A stretch of DNA of 53,356 nt from a bacterium. GTDB lineage: Bacteria; Acidobacteriota; Thermoanaerobaculia; Multivoradales; JAHEKO01. The translations under genes and the position numbers were made by a program. The stretch is taken from contig JAAENP010000177.1 in assembly GCA_024224155.1 (NCBI GenBank), forward strand, positions 1-53,356, written 5' to 3'. Of this stretch, positions 5,625 through 10,428 are shown piece after piece. How positions within the stretch are numbered: position 1 is the first letter of the stretch; each line of letters begins with the position of its first letter. The notes under the pieces were generated by a model. That model was not told the origin of the DNA, searched no databases, and saw only the letters and a program-made list of their open reading frames with translations.

Positions 5625-7241
5625 ATGTTTTGGCGAAAACTCTCCGTTCTGGTCGGCACACTTGTCCTCCTCGGATCGGCGAGCATCCGGGCCGAGAAGA
5701 TCGACCTCACACCGCGCGCCTGGCCACGCGGTGAGCTCGCTTACTACACCGAGCTGCAGAACAACAATCGCCGCGAGCACCCTCCGGCCAAAGGCAAGCG
5801 AGGTCTCGTGGTGGGAACCACCGGAGCGCTGGCGTTGCGCTCCGGACTGGAGGCTCTCCGGCAAGGCGGAACCGCGGCCGACGCAGCGTTGACGACCGCC
5901 CTCGCTCAGATCACCCTCAACGCAGGTGCCACCGTGAGCTTCGCCGGCTTTATGTCACTCGTCTACTACGAAGCCTCGACCGGTGAAGTCCACTACCTGA
6001 ACGGCTCCTGGGATGTTCCCCGCGGTCAGGTGTCCGGAGAGGACATCCCCCCATGCGAGGTTCCCAGTGGCCGCCAGGTGCTGGTGCCAGGCTTCATGAG
6101 CTCGCTCGAGGAGATCCATGACGAGTTCGGCGTTCTGCCCTTCAAGGCCCTGTTCGGCCCCGCGCTCTACTTCGCTCGGGAAGGGTTCGAGATCTTCCCC
6201 ATGCTCGGCGGCTGGATCAGGGCCAGGGAGGAAACGCTGAGGCGCCTCGAAGGCGGACGCGACATCTTCGTGAGATCGGACGGATCCCTGTACGAAACCG
6301 GCGACTGGTTCCGGCAGCCAAAGCTCGCCAGGACGCTGAAGAAAGTGTCTCGCAAGGGCTCGCGTTACATGTACCGCGGACCCTGGGCGAGAAAGCTCGT
6401 CCGACTGGTGCAGGCCGAAGGAGGTCGCCTCGAGCTCGCCGACCTCGAGGCCTACCGGCCGCTGTGGATCGAACCCGACTCCGTCGCATTCGAGGATTAT
6501 GTCGTCCACGCACCCGCCCACCCCGGACTCACGGGCGGCCTCTTGCAGGCGGTGCTAAGGGGTCTTTCGGCCGCTGACCTGAGAGCGGCGGGGCACTACA
6601 CCGAGTCGGTCGACGCCCTCGCCATGATGTTCGATGCGGTCGAGCGGAGGCACGGACAATCTGGGCAAGGCGGGTCGAGTGGAGGTCACTCGGACGGCGT
6701 GCTGGCGATCGACTCGAGCGGCAATGTCGCAGCCCTGCTCCACACGATCAACACGGTGATCTGGGGTGCAACCGGGATCTTCGTGGATGGTGTCTCGGTG
6801 GCGGACGCCGGATGTTGGGCCAGCCGTCTGGTGACCACCGCGGGCCCCGGCGGCCGTCTGGAGACCGGGGAAGTCCCTCTGATCGTAACCCGCGACGGTT
6901 TGCCGGTCTTCGCGTCGAGCGGCGTGGGCTCCGGCCTCTTCGAAACGACTCTCTTCAGCCTGATCAACCTGATGGCGTACGACATGAGACCGTACAAGGC
7001 CGTCACCGCTCCGACCGCTCACTTTTCCTCGCGGTCGGTCACCGGGGTCATTCATCGCGTCTGGGAAGGAGACTTCCCGCAAGACATGCTGACTTCGATG
7101 CGTAATCTCGGCTACGTCATCGAGGAACTGCCTCCCGGCGGGCGGGGCAGCGGTTGGTGCGTCGCCGCGATGATCAATCAGAGGGGCAAGCGCATCGGGG
7201 CGACATCGCCGGCATGGAACGGCGTTGCCCTCGCCTACTAG
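5625..7241 (+). CDS. Exported gamma-glutamyltransferase-like protein
   Basis: A 538-residue member of the Ntn-hydrolase gamma-glutamyltransferase family, with a signal peptide (WRKLSVLVGTLVLLGSASIRA) directing it to the periplasm. Family landmarks are GALALRSGLEALRQGGTAADAA near the start, then LPFKALFGPALYFAREGF, and the small-subunit region DGVLAIDSSGNVAALLHTIN. In classical enzymes the autocleavage/nucleophile Thr precedes HxS as T-T-H; here the corresponding residues are S-S-G-G-H-S, so Thr is absent and only Ser remains close by. The enzyme may use Ser, or be inactive in transfer. It stands alone, with a structured-looking leader. Confidence 0.85.
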   Translation: MFWRKLSVLVGTLVLLGSASIRAEKIDLTPRAWPRGELAYYTELQNNNRREHPPAKGKRGLVVGTTGALALRSGLEALRQGGTAADAALTTALAQITLNAGATVSFAGFMSLVYYEASTGEVHYLNGSWDVPRGQVSGEDIPPCEVPSGRQVLVPGFMSSLEEIHDEFGVLPFKALFGPALYFAREGFEIFPMLGGWIRAREETLRRLEGGRDIFVRSDGSLYETGDWFRQPKLARTLKKVSRKGSRYMYRGPWARKLVRLVQAEGGRLELADLEAYRPLWIEPDSVAFEDYVVHAPAHPGLTGGLLQAVLRGLSAADLRAAGHYTESVDALAMMFDAVERRHGQSGQGGSSGGHSDGVLAIDSSGNVAALLHTINTVIWGATGIFVDGVSVADAGCWASRLVTTAGPGGRLETGEVPLIVTRDGLPVFASSGVGSGLFETTLFSLINLMAYDMRPYKAVTAPTAHFSSRSVTGVIHRVWEGDFPQDMLTSMRNLGYVIEELPPGGRGSGWCVAAMINQRGKRIGATSPAWNGVALAY

Positions 7242-7327: not shown

Positions 7328-8413
7328 CTAGGCGAACGCGACCTCCCTTGTGTCGCTTGGGGAACGGCACTGGTTCCGGCTGCAGAACTGGCTCTCGTAC
7401 ATCGAAACGTTAGCGAAGAAGTTGCTCGCTCGGCAGCCGCCGCGACAAGCGGCGCCGAACTCGCAAGTTCGACATCGGCCGGACAACAGGTCGACGTCGA
7501 ACGCCCGGTTGTAGGCGAAACTGGTCTCGTCGTTCCAGATGTCGGAGAGGCTTCGGTCCCGGACGTTGCCTTCGATGAAGAAGTCGTCGTACAGCGCTCC
7601 ACACCCCTTGATGTTGCCGACCGAGTCGATCGCGACCGAGGTGAGCCCCGCCTGACAGCCTTCCCAGCAGCATATGGGCGCCCTTCTGCCACGAATGTAG
7701 GTCTCGTGATCGTCGAAGTAGCCGATACTGTCGGCGGCGATCACGACCATCTCCCGTTCCAGATTCTTCTCTCGGATGAACTCGGTGATCGCCGGGATCT
7801 TGTCCGCGCGGATGATCAGATCGTCGCAGCCCAACATGTTGCCCATCGGATTGACCAGTTGGAGCTGCCAGATCGCCACACCGTGCTCCACGAGATATGC
7901 GTACATCGGCTCGAGGTCAGCGAAATTGAAGTCCAGCAGGCTGGTCACGACGCCAACGGGAACGGCTTCAGCCCTCAAGAGACCGATGGAGCGGGTCACC
8001 TGAGCGAAGCCATCCGGCCGCCGCCGGATCCGGTTGTGGTTCTCCTCCATGCCGTCGATCGAGAGACCGACGTTGGCCAGGTTCGCGTACTTGATCTGCT
8101 CCAGATGCTTTGGCTGCAAGTGGTAGCCGTTGGTCATGATGTTGACCAGCACCCCGGCGTCGGTGAGACGGCGAGCGATCTGTTCCCAACCTCTGTAGAG
8201 AAACATCTCGCCGCCGATGAGCGTCAGCTCCTCGCAGCCCAGAGCCGCAAGCTCGTCGGCGACGGCCAGGCACTCGTTCAGCGTGAGCTCCTTGTGCCGG
8301 GCCGCTCCCGCGCTCGAACCGCAATGCATGCAGTTCATCGTGCAGCGCAGCGTCAGCTCCCAAATACAGGCCCGGAGGTCGTAGTCCGGCTCGGTCACGC
8401 TTGGATCGGCCAT
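7328..8413 (-). CDS. Radical SAM/SPASM domain protein
   Basis: A 361-residue enzyme, taken from the ATG at 8413 13 nt after the small upstream gene stops. The radical SAM cluster motif is C24-TMN-C28-MH-C31, followed by LTLIGGEMFLYRGW and NIMTNGYHL on the TIM barrel and LANVGLSIDG. The last 110 residues form a Cys-rich SPASM-type domain: CCWEGCQAG, then GCGALYDD, CRTCEFGAACRGGC and FCSRNQC, enough cysteines for two auxiliary FeS clusters. Such proteins typically modify ribosomally made peptides or protein side chains (PqqE, AlbA, anSME families). The short gap after the 106-residue gene implies co-translation, making that protein a candidate substrate or partner (inference). Confidence 0.92.
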   Translation of the reverse strand: MADPSVTEPDYDLRACIWELTLRCTMNCMHCGSSAGAARHKELTLNECLAVADELAALGCEELTLIGGEMFLYRGWEQIARRLTDAGVLVNIMTNGYHLQPKHLEQIKYANLANVGLSIDGMEENHNRIRRRPDGFAQVTRSIGLLRAEAVPVGVVTSLLDFNFADLEPMYAYLVEHGVAIWQLQLVNPMGNMLGCDDLIIRADKIPAITEFIREKNLEREMVVIAADSIGYFDDHETYIRGRRAPICCWEGCQAGLTSVAIDSVGNIKGCGALYDDFFIEGNVRDRSLSDIWNDETSFAYNRAFDVDLLSGRCRTCEFGAACRGGCRASNFFANVSMYESQFCSRNQCRSPSDTREVAFA

Positions 8414-8426
8414 GCCGCCCAATCGT

Positions 8427-8747
8427 CTAACTGAACCCGATAGCACCGGCCTCGACGTCTCGAGCAGAGATGTTGATGGCCGTGACCTTCTGCCGCAAGC
8501 CAAGCTCGGCTGACACCATCTTTACTTGCTCGTCCGTCAGATAGAGCATCCAGTCGTCCTTGACAACGCCCAGAGCCGGCAGCTTGTACGAGGCGAGGCA
8601 GTCTCCCGGCCGCCAGGCGATTTCCACTGCCGCTAGATCGCGCCTGCGTATGTTGCCCAGAGTGGCCTTGGTGGCGAAGTCCGCGACCATTCTCTTCTGC
8701 CACGAGGTCAGATAGATCTTCAGCTTCTTCTTTTTTGCGCGTGCCAT
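8427..8747 (-). CDS. Small basic protein, candidate substrate of the adjacent radical SAM enzyme
   Basis: A 106-residue protein with a strong AAAGGAG 7 bases before its ATG. I do not recognise the family. It begins with a Lys-rich stretch (ARAKKKKLK) and contains an internal duplication: YLTSWQKRMV at 12-21 and YLTDEQVKMV at 69-78. Between the two lie the aromatic and single-Cys segment VEIAWRPGDCLASYKLP, and the end is INISARDVEAGAIGFS. It has no signal peptide or membrane segment. It is the gene immediately before the radical SAM/SPASM enzyme, so it may be a modified precursor, a peptide chaperone or a regulatory partner. Confidence 0.8.
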   Translation of the reverse strand: MARAKKKKLKIYLTSWQKRMVADFATKATLGNIRRRDLAAVEIAWRPGDCLASYKLPALGVVKDDWMLYLTDEQVKMVSAELGLRQKVTAINISARDVEAGAIGFS

Positions 8748-8884
8748 TCGATTTCTCCTTTTCCTCCCTTTCTTGACCCTTCCTTGTCATCTCCGCGTGC
8801 GCTGATGGCGCCGGTCGGCCGCCAGGGCCGCCGTCGCTCTGGCGGGGAACGGATCGTCCCCTTCTTGGCGTCGTTGAGCTCCAT
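8720..8884 (-). CDS. Possible 54-residue Lys/Arg-rich peptide
   Basis: An in-frame ATG at 8884 preceded by AAAGGTGGG opens a 54-codon frame that overlaps the first 28 bases of the 106-residue gene. It begins MELNDAKKGTIRSPPERRR and ends EWHAQKRRS, with many basic and Gly/Pro residues. It could be a precursor peptide or leader ORF of the radical SAM operon, but composition alone is not convincing and the ribosome-binding site is inside a hairpin. Confidence 0.25.
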   Translation of the reverse strand: MELNDAKKGTIRSPPERRRPWRPTGAISARGDDKEGSRKGGKGEIEWHAQKRRS

Positions 8885-9159: not shown

Positions 9160-10428
9160 ATGCCAAGTGCTGACATGCCGACCGCAGGCGGTAGCCTGAA
9201 CACCGCTAGGGTTCCTTTCGCGGAGCCCGTCTCGGAATCCATCGCCGGCAAGAAGGAGCTCGCCGAGAAGCTCCCAAGGGACCTGCGCAAGGTCGAGCGC
9301 GGAGTCCGAGACCTCGCGGGAACGCTCCTCGATGCGGTGAGAATCTCGCCGCCGGCGCTGGTGAGCTCGGTGCTGGGTCCACCTTGGACCTGGATCCCGC
9401 CCCATGAGCACTACTCCGAGTTCAAGATCCTCGATCTGTGGCGGCTGCGGCGAACGATCCGATTTCTCGTCAACACCAACGTGCCGTCGTTGCCGATGAC
9501 GCCGCCGTCGTTCGGCCCGCCGCTTCTCGACAACCTGTTCTGGCACCCGACCGTGGTGCTGCAGCGCCCCGACCACAACGGCAGCTACACGAGCTTTCGC
9601 GACGAGCACTGGTTCTTCATCAACGGCATCATGACCGACGACAATGTGGCCCAGATCAACGCCGCGTATCTGGCCTACCTCTTCCATCGACCGCTCACCC
9701 TGATCCAGAACAGCACCGACGCCATGCTCATCGATTTGCTGCAGTGCGCTCTGGGCAGAAGCTGGCACCATCCCACCGAGCCACTCAAGGTCGCCTTCCC
9801 CGCCGTCTACGATGCTCTCGTCGACCCCCACAAGCGGCGGGTCGTGGTCGTTTGCCACTCCCAAGGGACGATCATCATGGCCAATGTGCTGAGGTGGCTC
9901 TATCGGTTGGCCGACAGGTACGAGACGCGGCAGCGGCCCCGCCGGGCGGGAGCACCGAGTGCGGCATTCGCGCCACCCGAGCCGGTATTCCCGGACCTGT
10001 CAGCTCTGGATCTCGACGAGTTCGAGCCGCTCGACCCCGCCGATCTCGCCAAGCTCGAAGTCTATGCCTTCGCCACCTGTGCCGAGTCCATGCGCTTCTA
10101 TCGCTCGGCCCGTCGCGGTCGACGTCAATCGCCCTGGATCGAGCACTACGGCAACCAGAACGACATCGTGGCGAGGCTGGGGATGCTCGCGCCGCACCCC
10201 GAGCGCCGGAAGATCTCCATCGACGGTCCGCGCTTCGAGCACCGGGGCGCCTGGGGCCATCTGCTCAACGCCCACTACCTGAGCCCGATCCGGAGCTCCC
10301 AGAAGCGGGGACGTCAGCGAGGCGGTAACGACACCCCGGACCCCTTCGTCCTGGTCAACCGGGACGACTACCCGGACGCGGTGCCGAGGCTGTTCGACTA
10401 CATCAATGGCGGTGTGCCCGACTCCTGA
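9160..10428 (+). CDS. Alpha/beta-hydrolase-fold protein (lipase-like)
   Basis: A 422-residue protein with GGAGG before the ATG. A serine hydrolase elbow is seen in RVVVVCHSQGTIIMANVLRW, preceded by a stretch matching the beta-strand/oxyanion region DEHWFFINGIMTDDNVAQIN. The end carries YGNQNDIVARLGML and GHLLNAHYL, which could supply the acid and His. This order resembles the DUF676/PGAP1-like and fungal-type intracellular lipase families. There is no signal peptide. It is followed only 3 bases later by a FadL-type outer-membrane protein, so a lipid or fatty-acid link is likely (inference). Confidence 0.8.
   Translation: MPSADMPTAGGSLNTARVPFAEPVSESIAGKKELAEKLPRDLRKVERGVRDLAGTLLDAVRISPPALVSSVLGPPWTWIPPHEHYSEFKILDLWRLRRTIRFLVNTNVPSLPMTPPSFGPPLLDNLFWHPTVVLQRPDHNGSYTSFRDEHWFFINGIMTDDNVAQINAAYLAYLFHRPLTLIQNSTDAMLIDLLQCALGRSWHHPTEPLKVAFPAVYDALVDPHKRRVVVVCHSQGTIIMANVLRWLYRLADRYETRQRPRRAGAPSAAFAPPEPVFPDLSALDLDEFEPLDPADLAKLEVYAFATCAESMRFYRSARRGRRQSPWIEHYGNQNDIVARLGMLAPHPERRKISIDGPRFEHRGAWGHLLNAHYLSPIRSSQKRGRQRGGNDTPDPFVLVNRDDYPDAVPRLFDYINGGVPDS

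Follow-up and report, generated by a model that had tools for sequence, protein, structure and literature searches.

A two-module small protein as the probable substrate of a splicease-related radical SAM/SPASM enzyme

What does a radical SAM/SPASM enzyme act on when its gene stands apart from any operon, directly behind a gene for a small, internally duplicated protein? The question is raised by a gene pair in a 53,356-nucleotide stretch of acidobacterial DNA, a metagenome-assembled contig (the whole of the stretch analyzed, hereafter the window). The original prediction described a 106-residue protein with a strong ribosome-binding site, separated by 13 bases from the radical SAM/SPASM gene that follows, and proposed that the enzyme acts on this neighbor. 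Both genes are present as described on the minus strand, with 13 bases between the small-gene stop and the radical SAM ATG (8413), and comprise the following features.

8430..8747, minus strand: small protein of 106 aa with two YLTxxQ modules, probable substrate; open reading frame with its stop codon at 8427-8429
8685..8714, minus strand: first repeat copy YLTSWQKRMV, residues 12-21, candidate recognition element; W16/Q17 invariance and duplication test
8577..8591, minus strand: SYKLP loop, proposed to be modified at Tyr54 (codon 8586-8588); alignment and low pLDDT
8514..8543, minus strand: second repeat copy YLTDEQVKMV, residues 69-78; duplication test and alignment
8755..8760, minus strand: AAGGAG ribosome-binding site of the small gene; sequence
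7328..8413, minus strand: radical SAM/SPASM enzyme, 361 aa; Pfam PF04055 and PF13186, NCBIfam and tree
8321..8344, minus strand: CTMNCMHC, the SAM-binding 4Fe-4S motif; alignment
7382..7657, minus strand: SPASM domain, in which seven cysteines are conserved and two auxiliary clusters are expected; Pfam and alignment
8720..8884, minus strand: 54-codon frame, judged not to be a gene; no family match and fold z-score

The pair has no operon-like neighbors. A gamma-glutamyltranspeptidase gene (5625-7241, PF01019) lies convergent downstream, a divergent gene of unknown family (9160-10428) lies upstream, and, as had been claimed, there is no protease or exporter gene beside the pair. The two genes have G+C contents of 0.59 and 0.62, a little under the 0.64 of the window. 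The 54-codon frame said to precede the small gene does exist (8884-8720) and overlaps its start, with no sign of being a gene; the region with the hairpin attributed to it folds no better than shuffled sequences (z = 0.18). The enclosing 61-aa frame has no family match either, and the frame was rejected as a gene and is probably just leader sequence.

The 106-aa protein has no match in Pfam or NCBIfam, its relatives have none above cut-off, and the YLT small-protein family to which they belong appears to be undescribed. The protein consists of a beta-alpha module, starting (L/I)YLTxxQ, that is duplicated in tandem. The predicted YLTxxQxxMV repeat at residues 12-21 and 69-78 is real by a shuffle test, in which the two halves aligned with a score of 43 against 20 +/- 4 for shuffles, 1 in 1000 of which did as well; the halves of two archaeal homologues scored 83 and 85, matched by none of 1000 shuffles. 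At an archaeal locus, L014 (L014:5170-5790), the intact gene is accompanied in tandem by a second two-module copy and by a frame with one module only, which lies upstream; these single-module and tandem copies indicate that the module is a real unit. The frame of the second copy is broken at a poly-C run, through real decay or sequencing error. Homologues come from several phyla, are 92-111 aa long and adjoin related radical SAM genes, and on this conservation the small gene is a coding gene rather than a chance frame. It is conserved end to end, unlike a classical leader-plus-core precursor. A profile search of PDB sequences returned scattered unrelated matches only, a fold search against the PDB gave no match, and scans of public genome contigs and viral contigs with the small protein, and of viral contigs with the enzyme, returned nothing.

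How constant is the pairing? Every confident small-protein homologue found sits immediately 5' of the gene for a closely related radical SAM enzyme, and adjacency and gene order are kept in nine of nine loci from several phyla. The range covers the phylum of the window, a gammaproteobacterium, the Chlorobium search neighborhood and methanogen/ANME-type archaea. In G147, G094, G391, L012, L013, L014, L041 and L051 the enzyme gene has the small gene immediately on its 5' side, or with tandem copies in between; the five L loci were reached via the enzyme, so that the unbiased cases are the three genomes found with the small protein only (G147 at E 1.7e-14 and G094 at 9e-13, then G391 at 2.8e-23). 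A follow-up search around G094 returned the same two genomes and no others. The closest relative, L012, shares 49% identity in the small protein and 69% in the enzyme. It also has a subtilase gene (PF00082, 2e-37) after the radical SAM gene (L012:7139-10072), which is noteworthy because spliceotides have been reported as protease inhibitors. Among 396 genomes sampled from the phylum of the window, the small gene occurs in two (the window's own, G000, and G391), and a close enzyme (>600 bits) in the same two; this rare and patchy occurrence suggests horizontal transfer of the gene pair. Rarity is also what might favor a chance neighborhood of two unrelated genes, a reading that the nine conserved loci render highly improbable. 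The idea that the SPASM enzyme acts on its small neighbor thus survives both tests that were run against it, as the small protein falls into no known unrelated family and no confident homologue was found away from such an enzyme.

The enzyme matches the Pfam families Radical_SAM (8e-22) and SPASM (2e-7), and its cysteines (C24-x3-C28-x2-C31, C253, C271, C314, C317, C323, C327 and C344) are kept in nine relatives. It has the radical SAM domain, the SPASM domain and the two auxiliary cluster sites required of a splicease. The best NCBIfam match is TIGR04103 (nif11-class peptide maturase 3, PlpX type), presumably the same family as IPR026482, at 233 bits, which does not reach the cut-off of 725; next is TIGR03913 (GDL/DUF1843 peptide maturase) at 231 bits, which does not reach 592. 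SPASM enzymes whose target is a tyrosine in a small protein include MftC of mycofactocin and PqqE of PQQ biosynthesis. Against these the window enzyme scores 117 bits (cut-off 265) and 82 bits (cut-off 381), far too low in both cases, and no MftA- or PqqA-like precursor was recognized. The GDL-motif/DUF1843 maturases resemble it in their near-equal score and in having small precursor genes directly upstream, several of them with PYG, LYA or MYA near the N-terminus, but DUF1843 does not match the YLT protein.

The original prediction recognized no named RiPP class; a nearest class does exist, namely the splicease (spliceotide) enzymes with their XYG substrates. PlpX of Pleurocapsa, assigned to IPR026482 (PMC11002830), acts with PlpY to remove tyramine at Xaa-Tyr-Gly and rejoin the backbone (PMC11002830, PMC10373908, PMC10533398). 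PlpX/PlpY is the nearest curated enzyme family and has the same domain build as the window enzyme. The window differs in its sub-threshold score, in an identity of 31% to a PlpX-type enzyme, and in a partner that lacks the XYG motif and has no Nif11 or nitrile-hydratase-type (NHLP) leader (no family match). PlpY had no match in the window or its relatives when a single query, the putative PlpY beside a Nostoc PlpX (L023), was used.

A tree of 28 relatives places the window enzyme among six rows that form a group of their own (100/100), all members of which have YLT-type Tyr-Lys/Arg partners. This group is sister (98/94) to enzymes of Chlorobium and Paludibacteraceae, and both are nested with archaeal enzymes in a 17-row clade (100/99). 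Throughout this clade the gene just upstream encodes a small protein, of three kinds: the YLT family (nine loci), short double-XYG peptides (five) and proteins of 157-165 aa (three). The YLT protein thus fills the substrate slot. Enzyme positions separating the Tyr-Lys/Arg from the XYG clades amount to three weak columns (13, 227 and 240).

The five loci with short peptides are Methanosarcina-type and turned up among the relatives of G500, a Methanosarcinales genome. Here the partner is a peptide of 43-53 aa in which the XYG motif occurs twice, as in L042 (PLYGIVRPLYGVPLK). The L042 peptide includes ...RPVPLYGIVRPLYGVPLK and that of L039 ...CPVLKYGVVPVPPIVPMYGVIVVEDTK. VRPLYGVPL in L042 closely matches IRPLYGLPI within the published PlpXY splice tag PIRPLYGLPI (PMC10533398). 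These peptides, encoded upstream of clade-member radical SAM genes (L042:1037-1195, L043:2823-2981, L044:2888-3019, L039:2838-2999 and L040:2838-2996), are candidate archaeal spliceotides. A scan for open reading frames with two XYG[VILMA] motifs found only the partner genes of XYG loci, and none at the Tyr-Lys/Arg loci.

Other kinds of partner were also seen. The 157-165 aa proteins of Chlorobium and Paludibacteraceae, from the same enzyme clade (L015:5438-5935, L016:5468-5941 and L017:5468-5944), are PepSY-like by eye, without a Pfam match, and have in common the conserved segment (F/Y)Y(A/S)AQxPLIG, a possible alternative site. Splicease-like, more distant enzymes adjoin proteins of 160-267 aa with at least three spaced XYG motifs, QPVYGVVIDP repeats for example (L030:2445-3248, L031:2522-3208 and L048:2618-3100); L030 and L031 come from two other genomes of the window's phylum. 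Distant radical SAM relatives have further small partners with RAGDYIS in common (L045:1094-1399, L046:2556-2972 and L052:1330-1848) or a 69-aa peptide (L053:1228-1437), which suggests that this group of enzymes is surrounded by many further types of substrate. Within a literature search whose scope lay outside Scott et al. 2022 (Chem 8:2659), reportedly the main survey of splicease diversity, no paper linking such a partner family to these enzymes was found.

Where, then, would the enzyme act on the 106-aa protein, which itself has no XYG motif? The archaeal YLT members L013 and L014 carry one XYG per half (LYG/KYG and KYG/RYG) at the module ends, and in doing so they link the Tyr-Lys/Arg and XYG groups. 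In the window and six relatives, including all bacterial members, the first-half Tyr is followed by Lys or Arg, the conservation of Tyr54 being read from few sequences, as nine homologues in all were found. The sites form a series from VLKYGIRTP (L014) through LVKYRTPP (L041) to LASYKLP in the window. One of three alignment methods, E-INS-i, aligns the archaeal YG Tyr with the window Tyr, the Gly-x missing; the other two do not place the archaeal Tyr in the Tyr54 column. At the end of the second half the window has AGAIGFS where the archaeal proteins have VKYGAPPV or VRYGMITD; this site is lost in the window and its bacterial relatives, and L041 retains LKYAAL.

Structure prediction points to the same segment. 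AlphaFold models the 106-aa protein from nine sequences as a double beta-alpha module with moderate confidence (pLDDT 78, pTM 0.69), the order being a beta-alpha start and then alternating elements. The only internal stretch with pLDDT below 50 is residues 54-58, of which the conserved Tyr is the first. In the model of the archaeal L014 protein (pLDDT 74) the only internal low stretch, 42-45, is KYGI. A predicted low-confidence loop of this kind is compatible with a flexible, presented site and is no proof of one. The original suggestion that Cys or Trp residues are modified fares less well. The single Cys (Cys50) is missing in L051, and L004 has a Cys only elsewhere; this candidate site was dropped because the residue is missing in homologues. 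Trp16 is indeed conserved, being invariant with Gln17 in nine homologues. The likely target is the conserved loop Tyr rather than Cys or Trp.

Taken as a unit for protein modification, with an enzyme from a radical SAM/SPASM clade related to the spliceases, the two genes could work as follows. The two beta-alpha modules, each with its YLTxxQ start, would probably form a built-in recognition domain and present the flexible loop Ser-Tyr54-Lys-Leu-Pro to the enzyme, which would generate a 5'-deoxyadenosyl radical and act at Tyr54 by splicing or related tyrosine chemistry. We put the probability that the 106-aa protein is the substrate at about 0.7. That it is the substrate with Tyr54 as the target is an even proposition, and true tyramine excision at Tyr-Lys/Arg is a tentative suggestion; with Lys or Arg in place of the Gly that would follow Tyr, some other reaction directed at tyrosine is comparably probable.

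Could the small protein instead assist the enzyme, as a recognition or scaffold partner comparable to PlpY, with the true substrate encoded elsewhere in the genome? PlpX does work with a small partner, PlpY (PMC10373908), and full-length conservation, a mostly folded prediction (pLDDT 78) and the absence of the canonical XYG site from the window copy would all suit such a role. However, the archaeal YLT members with XYG in both halves, and the tandem and single-module copies, look precursor-like, and the Methanosarcina-type loci pair their clade enzymes with short XYG peptides and lack a YLT protein. Moreover, no double-XYG open reading frame was found near the window pair, and the small protein is dissimilar to the PlpY-like protein tested. 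We consider a partner role unlikely.

A substrate role could also go with a different modification, for instance a crosslink or thioether within the molecule at Trp, Cys, Tyr or Lys, or else an oxidation or an epimerization. SPASM enzymes with two auxiliary clusters carry out many such reactions, the Lys or Arg after Tyr in all bacterial members means that the canonical motif is altered, and Trp16 never varies. Yet the closest enzyme relatives act on or adjoin XYG substrates, the Cys is not conserved, and Trp16 is placed in the structured first helix rather than in a flexible segment, which makes this alternative quite unlikely.

The reading of the small protein as substrate places the window pair near the spliceotides without making it a demonstrated one. 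It lies outside the spliceotide definition, given its score under the cut-off and the lack of XYG, leader and PlpY; the best reading is a variant near this class that probably works like a spliceotide system or derives from one. In the broad sense, the conserved pairing of a putative precursor with an adjacent enzyme supports viewing it as a candidate RiPP. By analogy, its cellular role may follow the precedent of electrophilic alpha-ketoamide protease inhibitors. A new splicing branch is conceivable, if doubtful, in which a folded two-module substrate with built-in recognition and Tyr-Lys/Arg in place of Xaa-Tyr-Gly dispenses with PlpY and a leader, by new site rules or a new Tyr-directed reaction. 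If the substrate reading is right, a new substrate family that occurs in archaea and in several phyla of bacteria would join the small set of known backbone-changing routes, by which beta-amino acids or other changes are written into ribosomal proteins. The pair would also provide a compact system of two genes, with sites that vary naturally (xYG, KYR and SYK), for probing what spliceases need after Tyr. As alpha-ketoamide products are protease inhibitors and labeling handles, changed site rules would be useful.
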